Assembly: GCA_021234535.1 (NCBI GenBank)
Contig: SFZH01000008.1
Location: forward strand, 24,816,455-24,880,454
DNA: 64,000 nt
Direction: 5' to 3'
From: Stichopus chloronotus
Taxonomy: Eukaryota > Echinodermata > Holothuroidea > Aspidochirotida > Stichopodidae
The position numbers and the translations under genes were made by a program. Positions 24,036 to 57,505 of this stretch are shown here, piece by piece. Every line of letters begins with the position of its first letter. The stretch's first letter is position 1. The notes under the pieces were generated by a model, which ran no database searches, was not told where the DNA came from, and saw only the letters and a program-made list of their open reading frames with translations.

Positions 24036-24103
24036 CTCCAATACTTGCTGCAACAGCAAAGCCGCTAAGAAGTGACAGGATGAGCAGTACTAAGGAAAAA
24101 TGG
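24036..24103 (-). CDS. Micro-exon gene, hydrophobic-helix exon (68 bp)
   Basis: The acceptor is TTCTCCTTCAG and the donor GGAG/GTATGT. Only one frame is open (entry phase 2, exit phase 1). It reads HFSLVLLILSLLSGFAVAAS, a typical membrane-spanning or GPI-signal helix. The entry phase matches the exit phase of the exon at 24497-24576. In the transcript this comes after all the other exons found, so the helix lies near the C-terminal side of what can be seen. The gene is not one I recognise. Confidence 0.65.
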
Positions 24104-24496
24104 CTGAAGGAGAAAATATTTGAGTGAGAGTTCTGTTAGCTCGTCGGGAGGAAGTTATACTTTTTCTTGATTTTGAACTGAACTGCTTTATTTGCATTTT
24201 CCCATCTGTCTTTTTTGTGAACTTTGCTTCTGAGAAACAGTTTAATGATGTATACAATATTGACATATGGCGTCCCCCAAAACTAAAAACAAAGAAAGAA
24301 AACAAATGTAATACATAGTAATGAAAAAGACACAGCATGTATAAAAATTGAGCTACTCTCAACACAGAATGTAAAAGAAAGAATATAACAACAGAATCCT
24401 GTAAAGACTTCTTAAAACAGAAAATGGCTTAAAGAGGTAGGCCTATTGTATTCTTTGTAAGATAAATTATTTTATCGAATATACGAAAATAGTTAC

Positions 24497-24576
24497 CATG
24501 TAAAGTTAAATCCGTAACTGTTTTTAGCATGACTAGAACTTCGAAGTGTTCCACCAGCTGTGGGCAACGCTCCTCC
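24497..24576 (-). CDS. Micro-exon gene, Ser/Gly-rich exon (80 bp)
   Basis: The acceptor is CGTTTACATTTTCAG and the donor ATG/GTAACT. The frame with entry phase 0 and exit phase 2 reads GGALPTAGGTLRSSSHAK and then NSYGFNFT. A second open frame exists (phase 2 to 1), but only the first connects the exon at 28024-28286 (exit 0) with the helix exon (entry 2). The segment contains a possible N-glycosylation site (NFT). Confidence 0.6.
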
Positions 24577-26419
24577 CTGAAAATGTAAACGAAAAGACCA
24601 CATTCGTTTCAGGAAAAAATTACTGTATCATTTTTCAGATGACGGCATAAAAATAAGCAGTATTGTTTGCCAAGAAAGTTCAAACATGCAGCTACTTAGA
24701 CACAAATCCAGTAATGGAACCAGTAATGTTTCTAGTGTGTTATCAATGTCAAAATGACATCCTACTGACCGAGAGTACAGACAAGAATCTAATGAGCACT
24801 TTTGTTCCTTGAAGTTAATAAAACTGAACTATGAGCACACAAACAAAATACAATCTAATATGAAATGTACCTATCAACTCTGGCGACCACAAGGCCTGCA
24901 TGACCTTTAAAATTGTTGACAGTGAATGGTAACTTCAAGCTAAGATCGTCCCTCCGAAACGTGACCTCTGACTGAGCTCCGATGATCCCTAAATGTCCTT
25001 TAGTGAGTTTTCTTTCCATTGATTGCTGTATTTAGTGTTCAGTATGTAGAATTGAAAGGAACCTATCTTTTCCAGCCATGCCGCTGTTGACTGAGGGTCT
25101 CATGTTTGACCTCAGTTACCCTAGACTAAACTTGACCCGCATTAAAACACATTAGGATCTATCTTCCCGACATGAAACATCCACAGACCTAGTATCATGT
25201 ACTCAAACGTTCTACCTTGAAACACCTTGCTAACAATGTTTCCAGCGTTTGACGCCCTACTTCCCCAAATGAACAGTGACCCTTACGAAGAACAGAAGAA
25301 TTAATCCTCTGACCCATACGCATCCAAACATCAATTATGAAGCGTACGACCTTTGGTATCTACCTTCAGACATCACTTAAGTAATATCTCGGAGTTCTTG
25401 ATCCATTGTGACCTTTAGTACGCTCATGTTAAACTGACGATTGTGTAGAACTACACAGCTCATCAACTTCTTCAACATACGCAAATGTAAACATGTCGCA
25501 ACAGAACTTTCTTTGTTGCAATTTCTCTGTGAACTAGATACCCTTTTGAAACTTTCTAAGATTGACCTTTTGACTTACGTGAATTGGCTCAAGAATAGAA
25601 GTGGGATGTGACGATGTTACTTTAAAGGGAAATAGGGCGTTTGTCTTACAGACAACAACTATATTTTTAAAAACCAATACTTGTGGACGTAGAATAATAA
25701 ATTGTTCAAAATGAGGAAGGACAGTGGCAATCTTTTCAAGGAATAACATTCTCACAGATAGAAATTCAGTCATTTGTTGCTCAACAATCATTTGTTCACC
25801 CAAACTTTTCAAAATTCAAATGATTCATCTGCTGTTACTCATCACATGCATAATGTTTTGAGGAGATGAAGCTTTAACAGATGTTTATTGATGAGACTGG
25901 ATGGCTTAACAATAGTTAAAGGTACTTTTTGGACACCATGGTGGTGTATTCTAATCGCCCTATTTCCCTTTAAGAAACCCACCGTCAATCTGACCTTTCT
26001 ACCTCGACTTGGATCACTTTTAGTACTTTGCTCTTTCGTGATTTCTCACAAAAACGTCAAACCCCTCAGACAGACGAGAAACAAGTGTAATGTGATTGAG
26101 TTCTTGTTCATTTAAAAAAAAAACTGCATCCACAGATCACAAAGGTCACCACTGGTCACGGATCCACGCAGGTCAAGAACAGGTCATTATTTCTCCAAGA
26201 CGATCACAGTTTTCTATTATGTCAATGCTTCAATACGCTTTGTTTACAAGAGAGCAAAAATACAAGAAATACGCACTTAATTAGTGACTTTTAACACACT
26301 TGGATTAACTTCAATTTATGTAACGTAATATTCGATCCTAAGACCCCAACAACTTCCTGTAAAATTATGTCGTAATTGGAACAACGATTAAGTTATGGTT
26401 ATTTAAAAAATAGTTCAAA
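24577..26419. other. Intron of the micro-exon gene; no other gene supported
   Basis: AT-rich sequence. A minus-strand frame at 25534-25812 has no motif or splice context. Nothing else is recognised. Confidence 0.45.
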
Positions 26420-26520
26420 CTTCGTCTACTGATGACCTCAAATGACCTTTGATCTACACAACCAAAAACAATAGATCACGTCTTTTAACCTGGGGGATCT
26501 ATCTGTCAAGTTTTACATTT
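26420..26520 (-). repeat. AGGTCA-type dispersed repeat, reverse orientation
   Basis: GATGACCTCAAATGACCTTTGATC followed by ACCAAAAACAATAG is the reverse complement of the core of the repeats at 14253-14800. Confidence 0.65.
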
Positions 26521-26559
26521 ATCTGACTCTCCCGTATTGAGTAAGAGTCTACTACTGAA

Positions 26560-27330
26560 GTGTCACCCCCCCCCCCCCACACACACACACACACACACAT
26601 ACCCGTTTAGGGCGTCGATCGGGGACATGAACTTTTCCTCACGTAAATGGGGATATCCCCACTTTGCATATGATTGCCCCAGTGCGTGGTACTTAGTCTT
26701 GCATGTATCGACGAATCACGCCAGAAACGGAATAGTGTGTATAACTTTTTTAATCACATACACCCCTATACACAGGTATAGATCCATAAAATAGGTAATT
26801 GGGGAAAAGTTAGATTCACCTATAAAGTTGAGGGCGCATATCTAATACCCCAACTTGCATTATGTTAAAATATCCAGAAACGGGGAAATCCTCGTTTTTC
26901 GGCGTATCCCCGGTTGCAAGCTTGAAGTTACTGTGTGTGTCCCCGTTCGGCGCCATAAACAAACTCACACACACACTTATTCGCTCACCACGCCAATTGG
27001 GCATGGCTTTTCCTCACATAATCGCAGAGCTCTCAACTTTGCAGATAATTTAAACTTTTTACTGGCATTTAGTCTTGCATATATCCTCGATTCATGCCAG
27101 CAACGAATTTTGTGTATTTTCTTTTACACACACACACACCCTCTATACACAGGTATAATTCCCTTGAACAGATAATTGGGGAAAATCCAATAGGCATGTA
27201 AAGTAAAAGGTGCATATCGGATACCCCAATTTGCATTACCTTAAAATATCCGAATACGCTAATATCCGCCTTGTTCGGTCTATCCCTAATTACATGGTTA
27301 ATTGCTTGTGTGTGTCCCCGTTTGGCTCCC
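26560..27330. repeat. Two tandem copies of a roughly 376-bp segment with CA runs
   Basis: Landmarks recur 376 bp apart: TAGTCTTGCAT at about 26694 and 27070, and GTGTGTCCCCGTT at about 26935 and 27311. The CACACA tracts and the ACACAGGTATA and AATTGGGGAAAA words also recur. The copies differ by many substitutions, so the duplication is old. No coding function is supported. Confidence 0.75.
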
Positions 27331-28023
27331 TTTAAACCGGGACACATACGCCAACCTGACCGCTTAGATACCTTTGCTATCGGACGAAACCAACAAAAGA
27401 ACGTACAACAGAATTGGGACATTTCCTCCTATTCAGCAAGGGACGTCAAAGATATGCATGGTTGCTACCTGGACTTAACTATCATCTCTCAGAGACATTT
27501 TTTAACACTGCTTCAGAAATAATGAATCATTTCATATTGCGATAACACTTATCACATAAAAATGGTGATTAGGTTACATGTTTCAGTTTAAGTTATAAGT
27601 TTAAGTTAAGTGTTTCAGTTTAATTTAAAAGAAGAGGTCCTTAAAGAAAGTGAAGAACACTAATTATCTGAACAAGAAATACTAAGATTCACAAGCAAAG
27701 GGAATAACAAAATCACATAAATGATATCTCATGGAGCAAGTCTTACTTCCACATTACAGGGTAGTATGACTCATATAGAGCTACGTAGCACTACAGTAAC
27801 AGAGGAGACAAGCTCTAGATTACAATACAGTTTGCTATACCTGTATCCGATAACACAGATCAATCATTCTTACAGTAAAAAAACAAAAACAATTTAAGCT
27901 ATAGGCACACCTACTTTGTTCACAAACAATGCACCAAATTGATAATTATTGATCTTTGTAAGAGAATTAAGAAAAGTATTATGCAATTTTCGCCGGTGTC
28001 AATGCATATGGTGTTGTATTTAC
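27331..28023. other. Intron of the micro-exon gene; nothing recognised
   Basis: AT-rich sequence without supported frames or repeats. It contains a short AAGTTTAAGTT-type direct repeat at about 27590-27625. Confidence 0.4.
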
Positions 28024-28286
28024 CTTCTTCCCTTTTTCTTCTCTTGGTTTCTGTAATGATGTATCCTGGCCATGAACCTTTGTGTGCGACAGTTGGTTCT
28101 CTCCGAAAATGGTGGTGTCAGGTTTAGTTATAATATCATTCGGTGAGTATTCAGCATTACTGAGTCTAGCTTTAGGGAGGACTATGCTTACTTTGTCTAT
28201 AACTGGATCTACCTCGTGCATGGTGCTGAAGGAAGCTTCGAAAGGTGTGCCTCCTTCGACCAGAACACTTGGTGGAAACGGATAAA
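28024..28286 (-). CDS. Micro-exon gene, largest exon (263 bp)
   Basis: The acceptor AATTTTTCTTTCAG and donor AAG/GTAAAT are both strong. Only the frame with entry phase 1 and exit phase 0 is open throughout, giving 87 full codons. It starts YPFPPSVLVEGGTPFEASF, continues with VDPVIDKVSIVLPKARL, and ends in a charged stretch (KPREEKGKK). It is rich in Ser, Thr, Pro and Lys, with no cysteine and no domain that I recognise. Entry phase matches the exon at 30852-30919 and exit phase matches the exon at 24497-24576. Confidence 0.7.
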
Positions 28287-30851
28287 CTGAAAGAAAAATT
28301 AAATGAAGTCCTTTCATATATTTATTGCATTAATTATGAAAGCTCGGAGAATAAAGGAAAAACAAGTTTAGGTAAAGTTTTTGTATTTATCTCAAAAAAC
28401 AGAAACTTTGATGCGATTCTGAAGCACGTTTTCTCCCGAAATCCGTAAGTACCGGTCTTGGGTTATAAGTTTGAAAGGATAGGTTTATTTAATGCAGTAC
28501 TGACACTTCAGTAACTAGTTAGAATCGTTTGCAGTTGTGGCAGATACAGAACTGAATGAGAAGACAATGATTATGTCCTAAAATATGTTTATTGTGTTCT
28601 TTAGTGCCTACAAACTTACAAGTAATTGCTAAGTGCACATTGCAGTGCTGGATTAACCAGGCAAGGCACATGAAAATTTGAACCACAAAAATTTCACTTT
28701 GGACTGGGGACTGACGCCCATTTTCATGAGCGCGAGATCGAATTTAATAATTTCCAGCTACTGCCAGTCGAGGCGTAATCCGTCCCAAGGACCCGGTAGC
28801 ATAGGCCTATGGGTTACTGGAATCCAAGTTATTTCTCTTAGTGTGATTCTGTCCAATTCACTTTCAAAAATCTGAGGTGACAATACTCATTGTGGTCTGA
28901 TGGAAAACTCTCATGACCCAGGAAAAAACCCACGAGAGAGTGCCTTAGAGTGTGCCTTTTTGTTTTTTGCAAATGTATGTCTGTGTGAGTAACCGTTAGC
29001 CTCCGAAACTCTCACCTAATGAATAGACTTTTTTTCCTACTCACTAAGAGGACACTCTGCAATCGAACATTTTGTCCCAATAGGAATAAAGGTTAGAAAA
29101 CACACCAAATAAAATCCCTGACAAACATTCCATTTACAAAATTATGGAAACTGTCAAAGTCTTGTAAATTAGTAACTAAGTACAAAGGGTTAAAGCACGT
29201 GACAAGTTGTTTTAAATGGTCACATGGATGGTAGCATGATAGTGGTAAGGACTTTGTGTTCTTTGTGGTCTTTCCTATTGGACAGTTGAAACTGCATTTT
29301 TATTCTGTTAATTCTGAAAACTTTTTTAATCCAACAAATGTATTGCGCGATAAATATTGATGTGAACTGAGATGTATTTTAATGAGACTTGTATGTCTTT
29401 TCAGTTTCAAAAGCTTTACTTCGCGTAGGAAACACAAATATAAATCGTTTCTTTCAGTTGACACTGTAACTCTACTATGAAGAAGAAAGCTTCTCCAACA
29501 AAAACATATTGTCAGATTACAAAACCTACGTAATACAAGATTATGGAACTTATGACAGATTACTTGATGTTTTTAACACAAATATTTGCGGTTGGCTATT
29601 CGTTTTATCATTAACTCTATGCATGCTTCATTTCCTATTTACATATTCTGTATCAGTATCAACTATATAGTCTACTGTTTACTATTTAAGTAAAAGTAGA
29701 TGATGGATCAATATATTGTCCATTCCCTGCTTGAACTCACAGAAAACTGACTGAGAAAGCATCTTTACAAGTCAAACCACATTGATAACAAGACGACAAA
29801 AAACAAAGCACATGCAGCAGTAACACAGCATATTGAAAAGAAGAATCCATAAGGCTAATCCACGGACTTGCGCATCTCATCGCCAGTGCGCATTAAAGGA
29901 ATTCTCAACCATCGCTTCTCATGGCTCTTAAAAAGGTGCAAACATTATCGTACCCAAAGGCGTCATTCTTTTCTTTAGAAAACATTTATTTCACAGAATT
30001 AGGAGAACGACGTATTGTAGTAAACATTTGAAGTGGGATCCTGGTGCTAGAAATCAATCGGTTGTGACGTAAAACTAAAAAATTAAGTTTGTACAACAAT
30101 TTTGCAATCGTTGTAGCAAATGGCACCTACGTAGTGGCACTGGAGTCAAGTGTTTTACAGTGATCATACATCAGGGGTGCGGCGATCGTACCTTAATGGT
30201 TACTCCTCTAGCTCATCGGGGCCTTTTCTTTGCTAATCTCTCCTTGAGAATCATGTACAAACTTATGACACACTCTAAAACTTTGTAATGAATTGTCGGT
30301 CGTGAACCTGTCCTGTCTAGCAAACCAGTTACATTTATGGTCTCTCAATGAGTTTATGTACATCCGCGAAATCTGTTAACTCTAAAAAAAAAATGCTAAA
30401 ATTTTAACCACGGAGGATCCCGTTTTCGTCATGCTTTCAGCTATTATCTCTTTTTTTCTCTACTTGGATATTAAAGAGAATCAATTAAAGTACAGATAAT
30501 GTGGAAATTAGACTCTCATATATTTGATATATCCGACCGTGGTTGTTAATGATCTACCGGGCGGCATGAATTCGTCTAATGTATTTACTTTACAAGTACA
30601 CCAGTAATACAGCACAGGTAAATCCTTACCAAGTTTAAAATTAATCACTTACTTATTTATCTCATCCCAAACATGTATAGACATGGGAGGAAATAAAAGG
30701 AAATGAAGGAGACAGGGGCTAAAATGCGAACTTGACAACGAAAATAAAAGAAATAAAAATCCTCTCTGAGAGAAGAAGAAAGCGCAATAGTAAAAGAACA
30801 TAATTCCATCTTCTAAGGAAGAATTTCAATAACGCATCGCTTGAGCCATAC
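28287..30851. other. Intron of the micro-exon gene; no other gene supported
   Basis: About 2.6 kb of AT-rich sequence. I find no long frame, no RNA gene and no clear transposon end. Confidence 0.4.
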
Positions 30852-30919
30852 CTCCTATACGCGACTTCCACGAACCGCCAACATTTCCAAGATGCGACTG
30901 GATCAGCCGTGCTGTCATC
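30852..30919 (-). CDS. Micro-exon gene, exon of 68 bp
   Basis: The acceptor is a T-rich run ending CCCCTTAAG; the donor is GGAG/GTATGG. The frame with entry phase 2 and exit phase 1 reads MTARLIQSHLGNVGGSWKSR. Another frame (phase 0 to 2) is also open, but it does not join the neighbours. The chosen frame follows the phase-2 exit of 31017-31102 and feeds the phase-1 entry of 28024-28286. Confidence 0.6.
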
Positions 30920-31016
30920 CTTAAGGGGAAAAAAAAAAATCTTCTTAAAAATTGTCGACACAAATGTTTAACTTTAATTTAGTAATCCGGTATAAACACA
31001 TATTCCAAGTACTTAC

Positions 31017-31102
31017 CCTACCACAATGAAGGAAGTTCCAGTTGTATGTTTTGAAAGGCCAGAACTTTTGCAAAATCCTCCAACTGGGCAAAACGATTCA
31101 CC
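31017..31102 (-). CDS. Micro-exon gene, cysteine-containing exon (86 bp)
   Basis: The acceptor CTTTTAACTGCAG and donor GTAGG/GTAAGT are excellent. The frame with entry phase 0 and exit phase 2 reads GESFCPVGGFCKSSGLSK and ends in TSFIVV. It is the first single-copy exon downstream of the tandem cassettes, and its phase-0 entry fits the phase-0 exit of the exon at 34486-34555. A competing frame ends in a stop at the donor, so it does not continue. Confidence 0.65.
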
Positions 31103-32374
31103 CTGCAGTTAAAAGTTTGGTAAAAAGCTTTCCATTTTCTTGGATAACGAGGAAAACAACAATTTTAAATAATCTAGAAGTGACGAATCAAATGTTAAGC
31201 TCAATAGTGCTAATATTTTACTCGATTTTATTTCACCTTATAATGTGACAATTATACCACAGTTATCGTCATTGCCTACTAATTCAATAACTTGTATATT
31301 CCACTTTCATGATGATTGCAGATATGAACTAAAGGAGTTCAATATTTCATCATAAAACAAGAGGACCTTTTCAGTCACTAACATTTATTGAATGTCGTCC
31401 TATGAACGATAATTTGATCCACATTAAAATGCTCTCTCAAGTTGGTAAGATGGGGTATGACTTAACTCAGAGAAGTTGGAAGTTGTATGACTAGCTATGC
31501 AAATTGGGAAAAGAAGGTATTTGCCGTTATTTGTTTTACCTGTAAATTACTAGAATTCACTCTAATAAGAGGCCAATGTCATAAACATTTGCATATGATA
31601 GACATTACATAACCATCCAGAAGTAGTCTTTGTTTTAAAAAGTTTTATCAAGCAACATGTGCTTTTAGTAAACATTCCAGTAATCCGTCTTTTTTTTTAC
31701 TTAACCTAATTGACAGAACTCCTTATTTTTCTTTTCTCTCAATGACAATTGAACTTATTTGGACTTTTGGTGCACAGTATATGTGAAGTGCGATATCATT
31801 ACGTCAATATTACAGAAAGAAGTTTATGACAAGGCAGAGGTAATTACTCAAATTTGGAGTTGTCCAATAAAATAAAGCTGACAAAGAAGCAATAATGTAT
31901 TAAAATTAGATGTCTTCAAAACATCATGCTTAAGTGTTTTCAAACCACAACATTCAATTATAATGTTAACGTGGAACAGCATGTACTGTGTCATCTATAG
32001 AGCAGTAGGTGTACATGCATACAACATGTAGTGTTAGTTTTCAAAGTTGAAATACCGAATTAAAAAGCTGTTTGTGCACATGCTCAGACTTCTGTGTATT
32101 ACATGTGTTCATTTCACTAGGTACCACGAGGTTCTTCATCAAGTGAATCGCAAACACTCATAGATTTTATCTGACGGCCTTGCAAAGAAAACGAAAATCA
32201 CATATGCGTCATGAGAATATACTATTGTACGTTATATTTGCCTTTCCCATTAATAATGAGTGTAAAGATTGGCAGATGCCATGCACTTTTGATTCAAACA
32301 AAAACCTAGTAAAGTAATAACTTTCATGACTTATGTCGTTTGATTAATCCCTTTGCATCGCTCCCTGACAACCA
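31103..32374. other. Intron of the micro-exon gene; nothing recognised
   Basis: AT-rich sequence up to the Penelope-like fragment. No frame, repeat or RNA gene is supported. Confidence 0.4.
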
Positions 32375-32880
32375 AACAGCTGCCCACTAAGAGGAAACTG
32401 TCTCAGGAGGGACGTCATCTACAAAGCCACAGTTACATCAAACAATAGCAAAACATCATACATAGGCCTTACTAGCGGACACAGACACAACCGCTACAGA
32501 AATGACACCGAACTTTCTAAACATATCTGGGAGCTAAAAGAACAAAATAAGGACTACTCCATAAGATGGGATGTACTGAAAAGCTCAAACACAGCTAAAC
32601 GTGCATCAGGCCTCTGCAATCTATGCATCGAAGAGAAGATAGAAATAATCCGCAACAAGGAGAACAACTTGAATAAAAGAACAGAGTTCATCTCCACCTG
32701 TAGACATGGAAACACACACAAACAAAAACCACCGAACCGTACAAGTCGAAAACGTTAGCTCACTGTAGCATTGGCCCATACACAGCTACAAGCACTTGCC
32801 TGATGATCGCCACACTAAGAGCGTGAAACTCAGAGTAGCAATGATCCTTTGAACAATATCGTGTGTTCAATATATATAAA
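32375..32880 (+). mobile_element. Penelope-like element fragment: GIY-YIG endonuclease and 3' end
   Basis: A plus-strand frame from about 32375 to a TAG at 32757 carries the C-terminal endonuclease of a Penelope-like retroelement: Cys-rich entry (CPLRGNCLRRDVIYKATV), SYIGLTSG, LSKHIWELK, a CNLCIEEKIEII segment with the metal-binding glutamate, NKRTEF and CRHG. Some residues between the YIG block and LSK seem to be missing, so the domain is probably not functional. The following ~120 bases (CCTGATGATCGCCACACT...GAAACTC) are like the 3' ends of such elements. It lies in an intron, antisense to the micro-exon gene. Confidence 0.8.
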
Positions 32881-32939
32881 CAAGCTGTACTAATGAGTAT
32901 TGAGCACTTTCATAGTTAGAAGTGATTAAATTCACTTCA

Positions 32940-32970
32940 TATATATCTATATATATATATATATATATAC
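32940..32970. repeat. (AT)n microsatellite
   Basis: TATATATC followed by an uninterrupted AT run marks a simple repeat next to the Penelope-like fragment. Confidence 0.8.
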
Positions 32971-33064
32971 ATCGATCAATCAATCCATTAATCAATAATT
33001 ACTATCTTATTTCACCTAAATCTTAATTTTACTAATCACAGAGTTGCGACTAGTGATAGTTTTC

Positions 33065-33955
33065 GTTTTCTTCTCATCAAGGCTTGTAACAAATATATTG
33101 TAGTCACTCTTGTTTGCCTGTATGGTCCTAACCTGGACGACCCAGAATTTTCTGATTTTTTTTTTTTTCAGAAACTGCAGGATTTTCACGGAGATTGTTT
33201 GTTCATTGGTGTTAATTTTAATTTCGTTTGTAATATAGATCAGGATAAGGTTGGGGGAAATTCTCGAACGGGTTCCCGTGAGAGAGACAAGTGCCTTGAA
33301 ATTATGACCACACAAAATCTGGTAGATAGCTTATCAAAAACAATTCACTTGTTCTAATAATATAATCTCGGGTATTCCTTGCAGACTCGATTTCTTCTTG
33401 ATCTTTCGTAATTTATTGCATTCTGTAGCCAATAATAAGTTTTCTCCTGGTCTGCGTTCAGATCACTACATTGTAAATTTAGAGGTAAATATTTTTGAGG
33501 GGAGAAGAGGTCATGGTTTTTGGAAATTAAATAATTCATTGCTGAAAAATACAGCCTAAATCACTATGATTACCCAGCTTGTTCTTGATGTGTCTAATTC
33601 CTATGAGAAATCCCACGGCTAAAGGGGAGTATGTGAAATCTTCTATTCGTAAAGTTTCCATTAGATACAATAAAACTAAGGCTAAAGAGAAAAGGTAGCA
33701 GGAAGTTGATCTTGTAAATAACATTACCCGCCTGGAACAGTCCTTTTACCATTCAAACTCGATAAGTGTTTTGAATAACGTTGCACAGGAGAGAAGCAGT
33801 TTACAACAAATCTATGACTACAAACTTAATGGCCTAGTTTCACTCTCCAGCAGTTTCGTTAGGTTGAAGAAGGTGAAAAGGCTACAAAACATTTCCTTAA
33901 TCTTGAGGCCTGCAGTGAGAGTAGTAATGTTATTAGGAAATTAACTCTTGCGACG
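33065..33955 (+). pseudogene. LINE ORF2 fragment: AP-type endonuclease and start of linker
   Basis: In pieces of plus-strand frames the markers of a non-LTR retrotransposon endonuclease appear in order: LVCLYGPNLDDPEF, LFIGVNFNFV (usually GGDFN), IMTTQNLVD, CRLDFFLIF, PGLRSDHYIV with the catalytic SDH, and the WKLNNSLL segment. Later come KTKAKEK and EGEKATKHFLNLE, which start the linker to reverse transcriptase. Frames are broken by stops and indels, and the aspartate of GGDFN is asparagine. The reverse transcriptase is absent. It lies in an intron, antisense to the micro-exon gene. Confidence 0.85.
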
Positions 33956-34110
33956 GGTTTGAGACTTCCAATAAATAAACAAGCAACGAACAAATAGACG
34001 ATTAAACCAACAAATAAATGAATTACCAAATAAGTAAATAAATTAACACACAAACAAAAAACTAAGTAAAGAAATATATACACAAATAAATAAATATCCC
34101 AGACTACAAT
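33956..34110 (+). repeat. (AAAT/AAAC)n-type simple repeat
   Basis: AATAAATAAACAAG-like units fill the stretch directly after the LINE fragment and give a low-complexity block. Confidence 0.7.
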
Positions 34111-34271
34111 TTTTTGTCAGCACTTGCTTAATGACAATACAAACCTTAACTGAAATAACCAAGTTCCAAATATATGTTAACATTGTATCTTGACATTACT
34201 GAGCCTTAAGTCACAGGGAAACAAACAACGGTACGTTATTTAAACAAAAAATTCCACACCTATAGCTAACT

Positions 34272-34328
34272 TTAACATTGGATATCTATTGTGAGACGCA
34301 TAAAGTTATCGAGTACGGTAAATACTAT
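34272..34328 (-). CDS. Possible alternative terminal exon in U1
   Basis: The acceptor ATTCCTCTCAG is kept in U1-U5. Entered in phase 0, as the preceding 70-bp exon allows, it reads IVFTVLDNFMRLTIDIQC and then a stop. This could end a short protein within each unit, which would make the units gene copies rather than exon cassettes. A weak donor (CAAT/GTTAAG) before the stop is an alternative. No polyadenylation signal is clear. Confidence 0.3.
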   Translation of the reverse strand: MVFTVLDNFMRLTIDIQC

Positions 34329-34485
34329 CTGAGAGGAATACCTGATAAGGTTAAGGAGCAAGTATGTATTGGAAATGACATGTTGAGAAACTGTCATTGA
34401 CACTGCAGTAAAATGCCGTTTTAAATAGAAATGACTAAAGATATAAAATTACATAAAACTATAGAAGACTTATAATATTACTCAC

Positions 34486-34555
34486 AGTTGCATTAATGAA
34501 GTACAAAGTACCTTCCGACGTTACAAGTATATCACCGATTCCATAGAGCATTAAA
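34486..34555 (-). CDS. Cassette micro-exon, 70 bp (U1)
   Basis: The acceptor is TTTAGTTCAAAG and the donor ACT/GTGAGT. The only frame open throughout has entry phase 2 and exit phase 0; it reads LMLYGIGDILVTSEG and ends in YFINAT, with an N-glycosylation-type site. The same exon is intact in U4 (about 47150-47220). It has an in-frame TAG in U5 (about 53013-53082) and a 2-bp loss in U2 (about 39390-39460). The hydrophobic/glycine-rich sequence matches no family I recognise. Confidence 0.6.
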
Positions 34556-34972
34556 CTTTGAACTAAATGTCGAGAGTAGTTTGTTTTGTGGCAATGATTT
34601 CAATGTCTTCTTTTACTTCTCACTCATAGGCTAACATTTATACTTTCAACTCAGCAAAACCAGGTAATGAGTATGTACATCTATGATCAGTTACAGATCT
34701 GTAAGTTAGACGAGAATTTGTTCAAGTAAGTTTACAAATGTTAATTTTCAAATATAATCCAAGAGTATGAGATCAATATTACTGCAACCTCAATTTCGTA
34801 AAAGACAGTGATAACGGATACCAACCAAGGTATATATAAGACTCTATTCCTTGTTGTCAACTAACTTAAGCAAATTTAATCACAAACAGTGATCATTCAA
34901 CCTGCCAATTTGATATAATGTCATCAGCGCATATAGGGTACTTATCTTAATAATTGCACAGTCTGATAGTAC

Positions 34973-34991
34973 CTTTCTAAAACAAACAGTC
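34973..34991 (-). CDS. Cassette micro-exon, 19 bp (U1)
   Basis: The acceptor is TTTTCATCATTCTAG and the donor AAAG/GTACTA. With entry phase 1 and exit phase 2 it encodes GLFVLE plus part of a serine, joining the exons on both sides in frame. The other two frames contain a stop or do not join. Copies in U4 (GLFVLE) and U5 (GLFVLQ) keep both the splice sites and the length. Confidence 0.6.
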
Positions 34992-35127
34992 CTAGAATGA
35001 TGAAAAGCGAAAATCGGTCCATAAAATTTATGATTTCATTCTTATTTCGTAGAACAGAATTAATGGCCTCAACACACAAAATTCAGATATAAAGATCCAA
35101 CAGTAGAGTTAAGGCTTTTTATATTAC

Positions 35128-35148
35128 CTTCTTCTCTTTCAACAGAAG
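35128..35148 (-). CDS. Cassette micro-exon, 21 bp (U1)
   Basis: The acceptor is AACTGTCATTTCCAG and the donor AAG/GTAATA. In phase 1 it reads ASVEREE with the neighbouring G. The U4 copy (about 47787-47810) is also 21 bp but reads AFVERCD. The homologous exon in U6 (60576-60605) is 30 bp. The splice sites are kept while the residues vary. Confidence 0.55.
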
Positions 35149-35249
35149 CTGGAAATGACAGTTTCATTAAATCATTTTCTCTTAATAGTTTTGCTGAAAC
35201 ACAAAATACTTTCAATAAAAGCAATATTATTGCTACATGATTTACATAC

Positions 35250-35289
35250 CTCCATAGAAGCGTGTAAAAAGGCAAAATAGATCAGGTTG
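35250..35289 (-). CDS. Cassette micro-exon, 40 bp (U1)
   Basis: The acceptor is AAAATCAATCTCAG and the donor GGAG/GTATGT. Phase 0 to phase 1 reads QPDLFCLFTRFYG. The U4 version reads ELDLICLFTHFYG and the U5 version VLDLICLFTRLNG. The three differ mainly in the first residue and near the end, with length and frame kept. The central CLFT is constant. Confidence 0.6.
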
Positions 35290-35690
35290 CTGAGATTGAT
35301 TTTATATTTTCTCAACTACCCGACATGAAGAACATTAGTTGGAAAGGGATACGCAAGTAAAATGCAACGACCAAGTTTTGTCTGTCTATGTTATTGAAAG
35401 AAACACAACGTCGATTATATTTTCAATTCAATCTTAATTTGATGACGTAAAGATTCATTAGTGAATTATCAGTGATTCATAGACTAATTTCAAAATGAAG
35501 TTTTTAAGTCATTGTATCAGTGACGAATCTTTGTTAGCTTTCAAGTCATTCACATGTTTGTTTTAACCATGCATATGTGTCACATTTTAGGTAGCAAACT
35601 GTTTTACGTTTAAAGCAAATATTAATTTGAATTGAAAATATGGACTGCTGCAACGTATAAAAAAGGCTGAATCACATATAACAAGATTAC

Positions 35691-35714
35691 CTGGTTTCGA
35701 ATTTCATACTCCTG
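35691..35714 (-). CDS. Cassette micro-exon, 24 bp (U1)
   Basis: The acceptor is TTCTGTTTTTATCTATAG and the donor CAG/GTAATC. Phase 0 reads QEYEIRNQ. In U4 and U5 the acceptor is shifted by one codon, giving 21 bp and EDEIRSQ. In U2 the acceptor AG has changed and the exon is probably dead. Confidence 0.6.
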
Positions 35715-36224
35715 CTATAGATAAAAACAGAAAACAGATAAATTTGCAACCAGTTAGCGATACATCTTTACAAAGCAATGTCATTTACATATCTATATTT
35801 ATCAACGATTCTCTTTGTGTTTGCATATAAAATATTAACTACTAATTCGTTCCCTTTTAGCGATATATTAAAATACTTATACATATACATGACGCGTCAG
35901 TTACAACATGATATTCTCATGAAATTTCTGTTGCTATATCGTGAAAAAAAGGAGGCATGTGCAACTCAATCGGCTGAGCTACGTATAGTACTGTGGAAAA
36001 TGAAGTACACAAAACACATAATATGATTGATGATCTGAGAGCCTGATTTATTGCTTATGTCAAGATGTCCAGCTCATTATATAATTGAGTATATTGTTTA
36101 TGGCATCGTTTTATTATGATGCCAGAGTAAACCAAAATATGACCGTAGGTATGTTATTGATTGTTGAGTAATGTAACAATGAATCTTAAATCGCAGCCAG
36201 CTAGCACATCTTTTATGCATTTAC

Positions 36225-36264
36225 CAAAGTGAACTTGGGGTGAGAGTAATCATCTTTGGTACAA
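36225..36264 (-). CDS. Cassette micro-exon, 40 bp (U1)
   Basis: The acceptor is GGACATTTATTTCAG and the donor TTTG/GTAAAT. Entry phase 2 and exit phase 0 give CTKDDYSHPKFTL, which joins in frame to the exons on either side. The U2 copy is the same and the U5 copy reads CTKDNYSHPKFTL. The U4 copy (about 49204-49244) has one extra base and is out of frame. Confidence 0.6.
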
Positions 36265-36408
36265 CTGAAATAAATGTCCCAATCAGACGGAGTTTAGCAT
36301 GATAAAGCCAGTCTGACGTCCTGATTGCTTACAATAGGAAACATTTTTTTTTAATTCGCAGAGAATGTTTTCGTCGTGGTGACAACAGGTGCAACCAGTT
36401 TTACGTAC

Positions 36409-36429
36409 CTTGCTTCTTCTAATCTCTTC
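36409..36429 (-). CDS. Cassette micro-exon, 21 bp (U1)
   Basis: The acceptor is TTGAATCATTTCAG and the donor AAG/GTACGT. Two frames are open: phase 0 (EEIRRSK) or phase 2 (KRLEEA plus part of a serine). Only the second joins the 40-bp exon that follows. The other units change one codon (EEIRRRK or KRLEDA), with the same length and splice sites. Confidence 0.5.
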
Positions 36430-36799
36430 CTGAAATGATTCAAGTAGACAAAAAACATCATTTATTGGAACCACACTCCATCAACACAATACCTGTCATG
36501 TTATCTTGAAAATAATGTATTTTCTTTTCCTTTTAAATGAGGTTTCTATGTACCACTTTCGGTATTGCTTGTTTTCAGAAGAAAAAAAAAAAAACCTTTA
36601 CTCAGACAAATCGTGGTAATCTTACAAATAGAAGAAAAACTGTTATTCATTTCCAAACATCAACCCTAGTATCCATTTTGTAACAGAACCTTCATGTAAT
36701 CATTGAAGGAATAATAAAAACGTAAAAACGAACAGTAATGTTTTAATTGTTATTTGTGTGTGTGTGGTATTACTGAACAGCATATTCAGTATTGATTAC

Positions 36800-36832
36800 C
36801 GCCGAACTATCACAATCGGTTTCGTTGGAAAC
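36800..36832 (-). CDS. Cassette micro-exon candidate, 33 bp (U1)
   Basis: The donor is GCG/GTAATC and the acceptor TTGGTAAAGAG, which has a weak pyrimidine tract. It is open in phase 0 (VSNETDCDSSA) and in phase 2 (FPTKPIVIVRR). The segment is unusually well kept in all units, including the diverged half of U5 (55965). This supports function, but the frame is unsettled. Confidence 0.4.
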
Positions 36833-37345
36833 CTCTTTACCAAATTTACTATAGTAATATGAGTCCTAGTTGGCTTAAATATAGCAAATTGTAATACCAT
36901 TACAGTATTTATTTCCAGTACATTTTCATATCTCATAACTGTTTTTAATATATCACATACTGATACTTGCTTGACTTTTATCGTTACTAACCCTCAAGTT
37001 ACGGTGACGAATCTTCTATGGATATTCAGTATCATGATTAAGTTACGGATAGTACAACGTTTGTGGAAAATTATGCTACTTCTAGACTCATACATATCCA
37101 TTGCTACACGCAGTACAAGAAGTCAAACATTTAGGGTTTAAATATCGGACGACGGTGAAGATAACCACTTTGCGGAATGCGTCATCTGTTGCACAGAATA
37201 TTTATTTATACTGGCACAGGCATTACTGCAGTCATGATTGTACGGATTCCGTCACCCTCTGCTAGACATTATTTGCTAATTAGTGCATATAGTTTTCTAC
37301 CCTATTGTACACTGCGCTTTGCAGATTTCCTTACAACCAAGTTAC

Positions 37346-37369
37346 CTTCAGGAGCGACAATTCCATTTC
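37346..37369 (-). CDS. Cassette micro-exon, 24 bp (U1)
   Basis: The acceptor is ATTTTCATACAG (TTTTCTTACAG elsewhere) and the donor AAG/GTAACT. Phase 0 reads EMELSLLK; phase 1 is also open (NGIVAPE). Copies are at 43106-43129, 45122-45145, 50572-50595 and, diverged, at 56412-56435 (EMELLLIT). All are 24 bp with both splice sites. Confidence 0.55.
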
Positions 37370-37400
37370 CTGTATGAAAATGAGTATACTATGATACGTG

Positions 37401-37438
<38 letters not shown>
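37401..37438. repeat. (CAT)n microsatellite, one per unit
   Basis: CATCAT repeats lie just right of the 24-bp exon. Equivalent tracts of different length occur at about 43161-43186, 45177-45199, 50627-50731 and 56476-56487, so they are markers of independent slippage in each unit. Confidence 0.9.
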
Positions 37439-37929
37439 ACATAATCATGCTTTATGGGAATGTTTCCGTAGATGTAGAACGTACATGAACGTTATAATAT
37501 TATCAAAAGTACCTATACCATCCCCTAATAAAAAAAATCTTCATCCTCGTGTATCTTCTATAAGATAGCAACAGTTGTTGAAAAATCAATAAAATAGTCC
37601 TCCTAAATCACTAATGTTTGTCTTATCGTCTCTGTTAGATTATTTCGCAGCAAGGAGTGTAATAAACGTTCAGTTAGGATCGCAAATTATATATCATATA
37701 TATCCCCAGATTCTCTTGCCAATCGATAGATAAGAAAGTATTGATAACAGTTTCAGCTCTTGAAACTTACGGACATTATCCTCAATATGATATGTTACAG
37801 TAATATGGACAGAATCCCAAATAAGAGATGATCGAAAATACTTTTGAATTTGCTACACTGATGACATATCTTTCATTTGGAGACATGGCAAGGGAGCTCT
37901 GAAGTTTTCCTCAAATCATATCGTATCTT

Positions 37930-38301
37930 TGCTTTCTAGTGGTATACATTAATATCAGGTTTGAAGTTTCAAGCACAATAATTTCGTTTCTAGATGTGCT
38001 GGTAAAGTTGAACGCAGACACCCTTTCTACTAATCTATACTGCAAACATTCTGACAAACATAAAATGTTGCTTTCGTTTTATACTGACCATTTCTACATA
38101 CCTAATGAGTCACTTGTTTATAAACTTTTCAAGATTTCCTATTCTACTGCTGATTTTATTTCGAAAGGCTGCCCAATTCATATCACTAGACTGTGTGTAC
38201 TTGAAATCACCACCGTAAAGTCTGTTGCCTTCTCTCCGACAAACTTAAGACTCTCAATGAACACATTTGGTCGCTCCTTGACACAACCGCTGTCACCCTA
38301 A
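37930..38301 (+). pseudogene. Penelope-like reverse transcriptase fragment in U1
   Basis: An open plus-strand frame of about 120 codons reads ISFLDVLVKLNADTLSTNLY, then CKHSDKHKMLLSF and then a SLVYKLFKISYSTADF segment. This follows the pattern FLDV / L.T.LY.K.(T/S)D.H..L / S..Y.....R..S...DF found after the catalytic core of Penelope-like reverse transcriptases. It lacks the catalytic YxDD part. Near-identical copies are at 43687-44049, 45694-46056 and (frame broken) 51600-51960. A diverged one is at 57027-57250. It is antisense to the micro-exon gene and was present before the array expanded. Confidence 0.6.
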
Positions 38302-38653
38302 AAGAAGAGCCAACTCTCTCAACTTTTTTTCTCGATCGACCCCCCCCCCCCCCTCGCTATCCGTCACCCTCCGACTGACCTGTAGCTTCCATTAAACTGA
38401 CAAAGCAGCAATGTATAATGGTGCATGAATTGGAAGAGAGTTGCATGGTTCATATTCATTGTTGTTTCTAATATCTATTAAGTTTAATTATCCCTTAAAA
38501 AATAGTATCAATCAAAATGAACTATTTTTTGCTGATGAATTATTGTGTGTATAACACTAAAATCTACACCTATGCAATCTATCAAATAATGTTAAATTTA
38601 ACGAACAATGAAAGTAATTGGTGCATATCTAACGGTCCGTCATCATGACCTAC

Positions 38654-38686
38654 CTCATCTTGATTCAACCAAGTTTGCAGTTCAAA
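38654..38686 (-). CDS. Cassette micro-exon, 33 bp (U1)
   Basis: The acceptor is TATTCTTTTTTTCAG and the donor GAG/GTAGGT. Only phase 0 is open: FELQTWLNQDE. Copies in U2 (44400-44432) and U3 read FELQTWMNQDE, and U4 (52317-52349) reads FELQTWLNQDE. The matching exon in U5 is 24 bp and in U6 27 bp (see those entries). Confidence 0.6.
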
Positions 38687-41292: not shown

Positions 41293-43686
41293 CGTTTTAA
41301 GATAATATTTATCTAAATTGAAAATATGGAATGCTGCAACATATAAATAAGGCTCAATCACATATAACAAGATAACCTGACTTCGAATTTCGTCCTCGTG
41401 TTACAGATAAATACAGTAAACAGATAAATTTGCAACCAGTTAGCGATACATCTTTACAAAGCAATGTCATTTACATATCTACATTTATCAACGATTCTCT
41501 TTGTGTTTGCATATAAAATATTAACTACTAATTCGTTCACTTTTAGCGATATATTAAAATACTTATACATATACATGACGCGTCAGATACAACATGATAT
41601 TCTCATAAAATTTCTGTTGCTATATCGTGAAAAAAAGGAGGCATGTGCAACTCAATGGGCTGAGCTACGTATAGTACTGTGAAAATGAAGTAAACAAAAC
41701 ACATAATATGATTGATGATCTGAGAGCCTGATTTATTGCTTATGTCAAGATGTCCAGCTCATTATATAATTGAGTATATTGTTTATGGCATCGTTTTATT
41801 ATGATGTCAGAGTAAACCAAAACCTGATCGTAGGTATGTTATTGATTGTTGAGTAATGTAACAATGAATCTTAAATCGCAGCCAGCTAGCACATCTTTTA
41901 TGCATTTACCAAAGTGAACTTGGGGTGAGAGTAATCATCTTTGGTACAACTGAAATAAATGTCCCAATCAGACGGAGTTTAGCATGATAAAGCCAGTCTG
42001 ACGTCCTGATTGCTTACAATAGGAAACATTTTTTTTTAATTCGCAGAGAATGTTTTCGTCGTGGTGACAACAGGTGCAACCAGTTGTACGTACCTTGCGT
42101 CTTCTAATCTCTTCCTGAAATGATTCAAGTAGACAAAAAACATCATTTATTGGAACCACACTCAATCAACACAATACCAGTCATGTTATTTTGAAAATAA
42201 TGTATTTTCTTTTTCTTTTAAATGAGGTTTCTGTGTACCACTTTCGGCATTGCTTGTTTTCAGAAGAAAAAAAAAACACCTTACACAGTCAGACAAATCG
42301 TGGTAATCTTACAAATAGAAGTTATTACAAATGATTACATAAGTGGACAGTCCTAATGAATTTTAGATGTAAAACTGTTATTCATTTGCAGAGATCAAGC
42401 CTAGTATCCCTTTCATAACAAAACCTTCATGTAATCATTGAAGGAATGAAAAAAAAAACGTAAAAAAGAACAGTAATGTTTTATTTTGTGTGTGTGTATG
42501 TGTGTGCGTGTGTGTGTGTGTGTGTGGTATTGCTAAACAACATATTCAGTATTTATTACCGCCGGACTATCACAGTCGGTTTCGTTGGAAACCTCTTTAC
42601 CAAATGCACTATAGTACTATGAGTCCTAGTTGGCTTAAATATAGCAAATTGTAATACCATTACAGTATTTATTTCCAGTACATTTTCATATCTCATTACT
42701 GTTTTTAATATATCACATACTGATACTTGCTTGACTTTTATCGTTACTAACCCTCAAGTTACGGTGACGAACCTTCTATGGATATTCAGTATCATGATTA
42801 AGTTACGTATAGTGTAACGTTTGTGGAAAATTATGCTACTTCTAGACTCATACATATCCATTGCTACACGCAGTACAAGAAGTCAAAGATTTAGGGAATA
42901 AATATCAATCGAGGGTGAAGATAACCATTTTGTGGAATGTGTTATCTTGTGCACAGAATATTTATTTATACTAGCACAGGCATTACTGCAGTCATGATTG
43001 CACGGATTCATTCACCCTCTGCTAGACATTGTTTCCCAATTAGTGCATATAGTTTTCTACCCTATTGTGCACTGTGCTTTGCAGATTTCCTTACAACCAA
43101 GTTACCTTCAGGAGCGACAATTCCATTTCCTGTAAGAAAATGAGTATACTATGATATGTGCATCATCATCATCATCATCATCATCAACATAATCATGTTT
43201 TATCTGAATGTTTCCGAAGATGTAGAATGTACATGAACCTTATAATATTATCAAAAGTACCTATACCATCCCCTAATAAAAAAAATCTTCATCCTTGTGT
43301 ATCTTCTATAAGATAGCAACAATTGTTGAAAATACCAATAAAATAGTCCTCCTAAATCACTAATGTTTGTCTTATCGTCTCTGTTACCTTATTTCGCAGC
43401 AAGGAGTATAATAAACGTTCAGCTAGGATCGCAAATTATATATCATATATATCCCCAGATTCTCTTCCAATCGATAGATAAGAAAGTATTGATAACAGTT
43501 TCACGTCTTGAAACTTACCGACATTATCCTCAATATGATATGTTATAGTAATATGGACAGAATTCGCAATACGAGATCGTCGAAAATACTTTTGAATTTG
43601 CTACACTGATGACATATCTTTCATTTGGAGACATGGCAAGGGAGCTCTGAAGTTTTCCTCAAATCATATCGTATCTTTGCTTTCTA

Positions 43687-44049: not shown

Positions 44050-44856
44050 AAGAAGAGCCAACTCTCCCAACTATCTTTCTCGATCGACCCCCCCCCCCCC
44101 CCCCGCTATCCGTTACCCTCCGACTGACCTGTAGCTTCCATTAAACTGACAAAGCAGCAATGTATAATGGTGCATGAATTGGAGAGAGTTGCATGGTTTA
44201 TATTCATTGTTGTTTCTAATATCTATTCAGTTTAATTATCTGTTAAAAATAGTATCAATCAAAATGAACTACTTTTACTGATGAATCATTGTGTGTATAA
44301 TCCTCAAAGCTACACCTATGCAGTATATCAAATCATCTTAGAATTCCCGAACCATGAAAGTAATTGGTGCATATCTAACGGTCCGTCATCATGACCTACC
44401 TCATCTTGATTCATCCAAGTTTGCAGTTCAAACTGAAAAAAGAATACAAAATCACCGCAATATCAGCGTATAGTTACAGCCTGGTCAAGTTTAACTTTGA
44501 CAAATAAAGATCTGACTTTATTACAACAAAGTGCAAACGTTTGTACATATGGTATATTTTTGGTTTTGATCAAAGGAGGTTGCATGATTGTATACTGTGT
44601 GAACAGTTTCTGATTTAAATCAGTCGTTTCAATGCGCATTATTAATGGATTCTACAGTACAGTATTTTATCTGATTGTATTTGAGGTTCGATGATTTACC
44701 CCATTCTTGGATATCACAAGTAGTGTTTCCCTCAAGGTAAACAGTGCACCAGAGAGGCATTGTTTAAACGCTTTTCGACTTGAACGCATGACCCTACAAT
44801 TAAAGTCAGGGAGCTGTCACCCAGCTCCCTGACTTAAGTCAGTGGTAAAAAGTTAC

Positions 44857-49992: not shown

Positions 49993-50626
49993 GTATTGCT
50001 AAACAGCATATTCAGTATTTACAACCGCCGGACTATCACAATCGGTTTCGTTGGAAACCTCTTTACCAAATTTACTATAGTACTATGAGACCTTGTTTGA
50101 TTAAATATCGCAAGATGTAATAACATTATAGTATTTATTTTCAATACATTTTCATATCTCATTACTGTTGTAATATATCACATACTGATACTTGCTTGAC
50201 TTTTATCGTTAATAACCCTCAAGTTACGGTGAACGAACCTTCTATGGATATTCAGTATCATGATTAAGTTACGTATAGTGTAACGTTTGTTGAAAATTAT
50301 GCTACTTCTAGACTCATACATATCCATTGCTACACGCAGTACAAGAAGTCAAAGATTTAGGGAATAAATATCAATCGAGGGTGAAGATAACCATTTTGTG
50401 GAATGTGTTATCTTGTCCACAGAATATTTATTTATACTAGCACAGGCATTACTGCAGTCATGATTGCACGGATTCATTCACCCTCTGCTAGACATTGTTT
50501 CCCAATTAGTACCTATAATTTTCTACCCTATTGGACACTGTGCTTTGCAGATTTCCTTACAACTAAGTTACCTTCAGGAGCGACAATTCCATTTCCTGTA
50601 AGAAAATGAGTATACTATGATATGTG

Positions 50627-56411: not shown

Positions 56412-56435
56412 CGTAATGAGTAACAGTTCCATTTC
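56412..56435 (-). CDS. Diverged cassette micro-exon, 24 bp (U5)
   Basis: The acceptor is TTTTTTTTTACAG and the donor ACG/GTAACT. Phase 0 reads EMELLLIT against EMELSLLK in U1. Splice sites and length are kept although the surrounding sequence has diverged. Confidence 0.5.
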
Positions 56436-57481: not shown

Positions 57482-57505
57482 CTCATCTTGATGTGACCAT
57501 TCATA
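57482..57505 (-). CDS. Diverged cassette micro-exon, 24 bp (U5)
   Basis: The acceptor is CATGTCTTGTTTCAG and the donor GAG/GTACAG. Phase 0 reads YEWSHQDE. It is homologous to the 33-bp FELQTWLNQDE exon but three codons shorter, with the QDE end kept. Confidence 0.5.

Follow-up and report, generated by a model that had tools for sequence, protein, structure and literature searches.

Predicted symmetric micro-exons in tandem units at an immunoglobulin-superfamily receptor locus of Stichopus chloronotus

In the parts of the published accounts on which we draw, the micro-exon genes (MEGs) of schistosomes contain short symmetric exons, mostly of 6-36 bp, with long introns between them. Such exons make up ~80% of the coding region, the product carries an N-terminal signal peptide and is secreted or anchored, variants are produced by exon skipping, and an amphipathic helix is described for MEG-26 (PMC10526429, PMC5825161). 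We describe here a micro-exon array in a 64,000-nucleotide stretch of the holothurian Stichopus chloronotus, called the window (C23:24816455-24880454, where C23 is the contig of the window, SFZH01000008.1 of assembly GCA_021234535.1; the genome searched is 719 Mb in 267 contigs). The array lies on the minus strand, in tandem units, next to exons of the immunoglobulin (Ig) superfamily (IgSF). As far as these accounts of the schistosome genes go, the array likewise consists of many short symmetric exons with long introns, in the size range and with the symmetry that mark those genes. Its micro-exon share would fall well below ~80% if it is joined to the Ig exons, its first exon would come from a set of candidates of which two are short and hydrophobic, and a hydrophobic exon lies downstream of it. 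It differs from the schistosome genes in having Ig-domain exons as neighbours and tandem units of up to five exons. The likeness is one of architecture, and no kinship is claimed.

The bicycle genes of aphids contain many small internal exons of a common phase, which is phase 2 for almost all of them in the part of the account used here (PMC9168663). The array resembles these genes, to the extent of that account, in its many small exons of the same phase, but differs from them in that this phase is 0. The Alr family of Hydractinia is a tandem cluster of genes for Ig domains, stalk and transmembrane (TM) segments with 1-1 exons. The receptor cluster described here likewise consists of tandem Ig, stalk and TM genes with 1-1 exons and is set beside Alr by this description; we know of no Alr gene that is preceded by an array of symmetric micro-exons coding for a helix. 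In the unrelated gene for troponin T (TNNT3), as far as the portion of the literature covered goes, several exons in a row are alternatively spliced. These exons are small and code for a charged segment, and to our knowledge they do not form an array of tandem units. Nothing describing the present arrangement is found among the titles and abstract openings covered, which leave out most subscription journals.

The micro-exon array

A unit of ~5 kb is tandemly copied between 34 and 58 kb of the window, with copies that are about 75-97% identical. A full unit contains, in the order of the minus strand, the exons E33, E24a, E21a, E21b and E21c with 33, 24, 21, 21 and 21 nucleotides (nt), all of phase 0-0. 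The joined unit would encode FELQTWLNQDE-EMELSLLK-EEIRRRK-EDEIRSQ-LLLKDAM (FELQTWLNQDEEMELSLLKEEIRRRKEDEIRSQLLLKDAM). The window holds five copies each of E33 and E24a, four each of E21a and E21b, and three of E21c (Table 1). All 21 copies are multiples of three with 21-33 nt, and AG and GT are kept in 20 of them. Where lengths change, they change in frame: E33 of unit 5 has 24 instead of 33 nt, and one E21c copy of a paralogous locus has, as aligned, 9 instead of 21 nt. Any combination of array exons could be included or skipped without a frameshift, since all of them are symmetric.

The array was compared with chance by a splice scan that uses generic donor and acceptor weight matrices of our own. 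Segments of 15-60 nt with a score of at least 15 were taken as candidates, and 200 dinucleotide shuffles served as the null. Unit 1 yields five candidates on the minus strand (four exons, one of them with two acceptors). Each of the five has a length divisible by three and an open frame 0, whereas the shuffles average 0.07 and never exceed 1. The fifth exon of this unit, E21c, stays under the threshold with a total of 12.3, and the E21c copies of units 4 and 5 pass it. The 24 kb of the array contain 22 candidates on the minus strand, of which 19 have a length divisible by three and no stop in frame 0, and 4 on the plus strand, none of which is of this kind; overlapping candidates are counted. 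Unit 1 alone provides the cleaner statistic, because the copies of the array are not independent. Both strands of the neighbouring 146 kb contain 78 candidates, 23 of which are multiples of three, and 14 of these 23 are open in frame 0. The short segments bounded by AG and GT that an initial annotation had reported on the minus strand are present, recur in the tandem units and exceed chance by the comparison of unit 1 with its shuffles. The phase-0 exon array is very probably a real feature of the sequence.

The joined unit consists in frame 0 of 45% D/E/K/R, whereas draws of five from 240 null segments give a mean of 18% (standard deviation 5.5), and none of 20,000 draws reaches 45%. The other two frames, read exon by exon, contain 4 and 3 stops. 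The repeat unit would probably encode a charged helical segment of ~40 residues per full unit. Other exons are less charged: 30% for 60605-60576, 22% for 67181-67155 and 31% for the exons of a family member at 24.55 Mb of C23. The best match of the joined model has an E-value not below 0.28 in Pfam and not below 0.41 in PDB.

The initial annotation had joined the exons of unit 1 into a single protein of mixed phases (2-2, 2-0, 0-0, 0-1, 1-1, 1-2 and 2-0), running through additional segments at 36225, 35250, 34973 and 34486. This phasing fails at its first exon: E33 and E24a of unit 1 deliver E21a in phase 0, not in phase 2, because E33 is open only in frame 0 and E24a of this unit only in frames 0 and 1. 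The four additional segments are asymmetric and break frame 0 of the array. The mixed-phase chain nevertheless has features to its credit, since joining six of the seven exons creates no stop and gives a peptide that is 35% charged, the segment at 36225 has AG and GT in all six copies and that at 34973 in four of five, and the latter scores 14.0 as compared with 12.3 for E21c of unit 1. However, the segments at 36225 (40 nt in five of six copies, 41 in one) and 35250 (40 nt in three of four copies, 41 in one) are each off by one base in one copy, and the chain is not joinable to the neighbouring E33 and E24a. The segments at 36225, 35250 and 34973 of unit 1 also lie outside the list of candidates with a sum over 10.5, an acceptor of 4 or more and a donor over 4.5. 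The segment at 34973 has 19 nt in all five copies, and that at 34486 has AG in none of six copies when taken in its 28-nt form. These results make the mixed-phase chain highly improbable, and the positions 36225 and 34973 may hold alternative exons. The schistosome-like micro-exon structure that had been proposed is supported in a simpler form, because the repeat exons are symmetric with phase 0-0.

The single-copy exons and the receptor family

Downstream of the array, the five single-copy exons X1 (0-2), S1 (2-1), Ig3' (1-0), X2 (0-2) and S2 (2-1) form a consistent chain, as had been claimed, and the splice dinucleotides, length and open frame of all five are kept in the paralog. The range of 19-86 bp given for the exons does not extend to Ig3', which has 263 nt. 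X1 and X2 are homologous (z 5.3 for DNA, 4.4 for protein) and have the same phases. S1 and S2 also share their phases and are related as DNA (z 4.5), with a protein z of 1.2, at which homology is undetectable. Besides itself, Ig3' matches seven places in the genome, which are the paralog at 82% and Ig exons at 32-39% on C23 and another contig, C157. Its source exon, Ig3, has 327 nt and phase 1-1, and its homology to Ig3 exons is at the level of 32-40%. Ig3' is open over 87 codons at 37% identity to this source and is devoid of the Ig cysteines; it is a derived exon and no canonical Ig domain. The single-copy chain is a duplicated X-S-Ig module, of which the upstream copy is degenerate and the downstream copy is the 5' part of a receptor.

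The next exons on the same strand after S2, which ends in phase 1, are a V-type Ig exon (IgV, 24814246-24813944), Ig3 (24812871-24812545), a stalk exon (24811900-24811799) and a TM exon. IgV of the window gene matches Pfam V-set below the cut-off (17.6 bits versus 26, E 0.0044), and the gene is assigned to the family because this exon is 43-45% identical to that of the member at 24.55 Mb. The latter is better preserved and contains IgV, a C2-set_2/V-set pair (4.1e-9 and 6e-6, both above the cut-off), Ig3, stalk and TM exons, with a 77-nt 2-1 hydrophobic exon at the position of S; its IgV is 45% identical to that of the paralog. A genome search with the IgV exon reports 150 matches (218 candidates at first look, 150 scored), which cluster on the contigs C5, C3, C9, C14 and C23, and all but one of the matches listed are stop-free. 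By these comparisons the downstream single-copy exons, which had been read as part of one unrecognised gene of no known family, belong to, or derive from, an IgSF receptor family expanded in the genome. The hydrophobic helix noted near the visible end of that gene is indeed found in S2, but it is not family-less: S2 is most likely the signal-peptide or membrane exon ahead of the V-type Ig, Ig, stalk and TM exons.

The paralog lies on the same contig. The region from 21.8 to 107 kb in window numbering, which extends past the window end to 24.923 Mb, matches C23:24.689-24.757 Mb piecewise, the two loci being ~150 kb apart. The main pieces are about 72-92% identical, and some weaker ones go down to 66%. 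The array, X, S and Ig exons recur there with their splice sites and frames. Among 454 minus-strand candidates between 24.838 and 24.940 Mb, 192 are aligned to the paralog, and 84 retain both sites, agree in length modulo three and share an open frame; this count is a filter and not a proof, because it includes chance and overlapping candidates. The five single-copy exons are all among those kept, with an exon identity of 0.81-0.89 versus 0.64-0.91 in the 150-nt flanks. An exon of 51 nt with a strong donor at 61369-61319 was dropped from the model, as it is not kept in the paralog.

Table 1. Predicted exons of the array and of the single-copy chain, in window positions
Feature	Position	Strand	Length (nt)	Phase	Peptide and remarks
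E33 unit 5	57482..57505	-	24		YEWSHQDE; 9 nt shorter in frame; end read from the sequence, placed 5 nt further by automatic alignment
E33 unit 4	52317..52349	-		0-0	FELQTWLNQDE
E33 partial unit 3	46405..46437	-		0-0	FELQTWMNQDE
E33 unit 2	44400..44432	-		0-0	FELQTWMNQDE
E33 unit 1	38654..38686	-		0-0	FELQTWLNQDE; frame 0 alone open
E24a unit 5	56412..56435	-		0-0	EMELLLIT
E24a unit 4	50572..50595	-		0-0	EMELSLLK
E24a partial unit 3	45122..45145	-		0-0	EMELSLLK
E24a unit 2	43106..43129	-		0-0	EMELSLLK
E24a unit 1	37346..37369	-		0-0	EMELSLLK
E21a unit 5	55521..55541	-		0-0	EEIRRRK
E21a unit 4	49388..49408	-		0-0	EEIRRRK
E21a unit 2	42094..42114	-		0-0	EEIRRRK
E21a unit 1	36409..36429	-		0-0	EEIRRSK; 2-2 in the initial annotation
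E21b unit 5	54808..54828	-		0-0	EDEIRSQ
E21b unit 4	48654..48674	-		0-0	EDEIRSQ
E21b unit 2, remnant	41377..41397	-			EDEIRSQ; acceptor AG changed to AC
E21b unit 1	35691..35711	-		0-0	EYEIRNQ; or 24 nt from 35714
E21c unit 5	53636..53656	-		0-0	LLLKDAM
E21c unit 4	47782..47802	-		0-0	LLLKDAM
E21c unit 1	35128..35148	-		0-0	LLLKEKK; weaker splice score; 1-1 in the initial annotation
Additional upstream micro-exon	60576..60605	-	30	0-0	LMMKEAVITK (paralog LMMEEAVITK)
Candidate first exon of array	59567..59599	-		ends in 0	MYRSLLFVAVK (paralog MYRGLLFVAAK)
X1	31017..31102	-	86	0-2	GESFCPVGGFCKSSGLSKHTTGTSFIVV; homologous to X2
S1	30852..30919	-	68	2-1	no hydrophobic stretch; homologue of S2 at the DNA level
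Ig3'	28024..28286	-	263	1-0	from an Ig-domain exon; cysteines lost
Candidate alternative first exon	27469..27485	-		ends in 2	MIVKS (paralog MIVKP); one of five conserved candidates; putative splice link
X2	24497..24576	-	80	0-2	
S2	24036..24103	-	68	2-1	hydrophobic, HFSLVLLILSLLSGFAVAASIG; probably encodes the signal peptide or signal anchor of the receptor, which runs beyond the window

Relation of the array to the receptor

The reading that we put forward, and hold with equal measures of belief and doubt, is that the locus contains a micro-exon-built helical segment within an IgSF receptor locus, with the array at the 5' side of the receptor gene. Whether the array and the receptor would share a transcript is about an even call. 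In such a transcript, the array would be followed by X (0-2), the hydrophobic S (2-1), IgV (1-1), Ig (1-1), stalk (1-1) and TM exons. Units could be gained and lost by unequal exchange, and the length of the segment could vary both between transcripts and between gene copies. If a single protein is made, S would act as a signal anchor that places the helical segment in the cytoplasm and the Ig domains on the outer side of the membrane. The sequence itself shows the exon boundaries, the symmetric phases, the frames and splice sites kept in the paralog, the receptor family and the duplicated X-S-Ig module; transcription, the common transcript, the helix, this topology and the choice of exons in splicing are inferred. 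In favour of this reading are the density, phase and charge of the micro-exons, the in-frame length changes, the recurrence of array, X, S and Ig exons in the paralog, the homology of X1 to X2 and of S1 to S2, and the 0-0 exons that precede 0-2 and 2-1 exons in two other members of the family.

Three further members of the family, at 24.55, 25.10 and 26.71 Mb of C23, were read in part. In the member at 24.55 Mb, three 0-0 exons (132, 141 and 141 nt) precede an 86-nt 0-2 exon and the 77-nt 2-1 hydrophobic S exon, from which they are 20-24 kb distant. No likeness of these 0-0 exons to the array of the window is seen, and a genome search with one of them gives three matches, all at this locus. 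They lie within 24572261-24575641 on the minus strand, together with a fourth homologous copy that fails the splice scan (RNVDINQREYMERTMEKNTII...IDPIP). The member at 26.71 Mb, on the plus strand, has a 195-nt 0-0 exon with 46% D/E/K/R and a weak CdvA-like coiled-coil match (15.8 bits versus a cut-off of 30), followed by 86-nt 0-2 and 77-nt 2-1 exons, the locus having been read as two pieces 3.2 kb apart. A direct repeat of ~1 kb with 96% identity (26686001-26686976 and 26694028-26695000) is located upstream of this receptor.

The 86-nt exons of the members at 24.55 and 26.71 Mb are alike (z 4.8) and are not demonstrably related to X1 or X2. Another 86-nt exon, at 24565140, was considered as a homologue of X1 and X2, which the comparison does not support. 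Between the exons 26692022-26692107 and 24552404-24552489, identity is 0.50 versus 0.46 when shuffled, whereas their 120-nt flanks are 0.62 and 0.72 identical versus 0.45-0.46 when shuffled; the exon length and both splice sites are kept. This exon, which has changed more than its introns, fits diversifying selection, on the evidence of a single pair.

Several points weigh against a joint product of array and receptor. With a coil and X preceding a hydrophobic exon, the Ig protein would cross the membrane twice, an unusual arrangement. S2 and the S exon at 24.55 Mb are related as DNA (z 3.8), but the protein z is only 0.5, so that the identity of S2 depends mainly on position, phase and hydrophobicity. 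In the member at 25.10 Mb, the 18.7 kb that precede the 83-nt 2-1 S exon contain isolated 0-0 candidates but no array, and arrays are therefore not universal in the family. The start of the array is not established among 13 paralog-conserved first-exon candidates that end in phase 0. Two of these are short and hydrophobic, MYRSLLFVAVK and MAIFTLFLFM, the latter conserved at 24891800-24891771, past the window (75346-75317 in window numbering). An in-frame Met is present in five of seven S exons, those of S1, its paralog and the members at 24.55, 25.10 and 26.71 Mb (in the last inside the hydrophobic stretch), and is lacking in S2 and its paralog; the conserved first-exon candidate MIVKS could start the window receptor separately. 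These Mets and MIVKS suggest that the receptor may not need the array.

It is possible, if doubtful, that the array is a separate micro-exon gene between receptor genes, and that the receptor starts at a first exon of its own, such as MIVKS joined to S2, to give a type I IgSF receptor with a cleaved signal peptide. Joined to S2, MIVKS resembles a signal peptide by eye, and the paralog has it conserved. At 24.55 and 25.10 Mb the S exons contain a Met either before the hydrophobic stretch or at it, and with such a start X and S need no coding role ahead of it. The two hydrophobic candidates could provide the array with a first exon. However, no terminal exon of the array was found in the search, frame 0 is open, as the 0-0 array demands, in the X exons of the members at 24.55 and 26.71 Mb as well as in those of the window and its paralog, and the S exon at 26.71 Mb has no Met ahead of its hydrophobic core. 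X1 and X2 do run into a stop at their own donors, but phase-2 GTAA donors produce such a stop regardless.

It is unlikely that the array instead contributes to the cytoplasmic tail of a receptor encoded farther upstream on the minus strand. The TM exon of the paralog, 24680282-24680218 (1-0), can end in phase 0 and so fits 0-0 tail exons, and an IgV exon of the same strand is present upstream at 25.039 Mb; this exon is, however, ~165 kb away from the array, and 60 kb of sequence upstream of the window yield no relatives of the Ig, stalk or TM exons. Among the IgV matches listed, 12 are on C23, and none of these lies upstream of the coil exon at 26.71 Mb on its own strand, which indicates that this exon is no tail of a preceding receptor of the searched kind. 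Downstream of the TM exon of the window receptor, at 24.720-24.806 Mb, the density of candidates is not comparable, with 23 on the minus strand in 86 kb, of which 6 are symmetric and 2 open in frame 0.

The conservation of the array exons also counts against the reading that we put forward, since they are not consistently more conserved than the flanking intron (200-nt flanks). Among the close units, E33 has an identity of 0.94-1.00 versus 0.88-0.93 in the flanks, and E24a 1.00 versus 0.92-0.94. E24a in two distant copies has 0.75 versus 0.80-0.81, E21b mostly lower values than its flanks (0.81-0.90 versus 0.88-0.95), and E21c 0.71-0.76 versus 0.89-0.91 when the 9-nt copy is left out. The ratio of nonsynonymous to synonymous differences per site (pN/pS) in the array takes values of 0.51, 0.57 and 1.02 at offsets 0, 1 and 2, from non-independent pairs. 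The acceptor is lost in E21b of unit 2 and in one E24a copy of the paralog. Between window and paralog, the ratio Ka/Ks, determined by NG86 from few changes, is 0.53 for Ig3', 0.33 for S2 and 1.06 for X2, and 0.56, 1.47 and 2.89 for the receptor exons IgV, Ig3 and stalk. X1 and S1 together have 27 nonsynonymous and 2 synonymous changes, and the five single-copy exons pooled give a pN of 0.140 and a pS of 0.141. The signal of purifying selection on the micro-exons is weak or mixed. The array thus retains most of its frames and sites, while parts of its sequence drift or diversify.

Because exon and flank identities are mixed, a neutral, decaying array stays a live rival. The array and the receptor duplicate would then consist of formerly used exons that now drift, and whose frames have survived through chance and recent duplication. 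The near-equality of pooled pN and pS agrees with this, as do the loss of the cysteines from Ig3', of hydrophobicity from S1 and of the two acceptors. Decay is nevertheless improbable, because frames and sites are open or kept in most copies although the flanks are 0.79-0.97 identical, length changes are in frame, Ig3' has kept its 87 codons open, and Ka/Ks of Ig3' and S2 is below one, albeit from few changes.

More speculatively, the joint arrangement of array and receptor might extend to a very large IgSF family, individual loci of which would have private amplified arrays of symmetric exons for an N-terminal cytoplasmic helical rod before a signal-anchor exon. The window would contribute its units of up to five micro-exons, the locus at 24.55 Mb its exons of ~141 nt and that at 26.71 Mb its 195-nt coil exon. 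The rods would vary in length and sequence by exon amplification and splicing choice, alongside fast-changing Ig ectodomains. If expressed, the array would be a case in which the architecture of micro-exon genes, described in trematodes and, with a different phase, in aphids, has arisen inside an immune-type receptor cluster of another animal, with exon sets that differ between loci. Expression would also account for the absence of such genes from annotations, and would make the 86-nt X exon at two loci an example of an exon that preserves its length and splice sites although its sequence has changed more than the introns.

Tandem copies and mobile elements

Within the array, a segment of 2 kb is duplicated in tandem (43031-45041 and 45047-47046) with 97% identity, which suggests a recent gain of a unit. 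Fragments on the plus strand lie inside the repeat units (37903-38301, 43651-44049, 45658-46056, 51564-51878 and 56958-57248), and one of the same kind lies beside them (32369-32758). We take these fragments to be like Penelope-like reverse transcriptase and GIY-YIG endonuclease; the two compared with Pfam give no significant match.

A Ty3/gypsy-type element with a long open frame is located on the minus strand at 2691-8222, and one piece of it matches RVT_1 with 6.4e-40. It sits in the intron between S2 and IgV, which is 26 kb in the window gene versus ~2.3 kb in the paralog. Partial gypsy copies are found at 572-1033, 9780-12000 and 19637-21443. The window gives no match to Rfam at gathering thresholds. 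A tandem repeat with a unit of 145 bp and 75% matches extends over 14246-14800, and similar repeats occur near 24.566, 24.719, 24.790, 25.119 and 26.693 Mb of C23.

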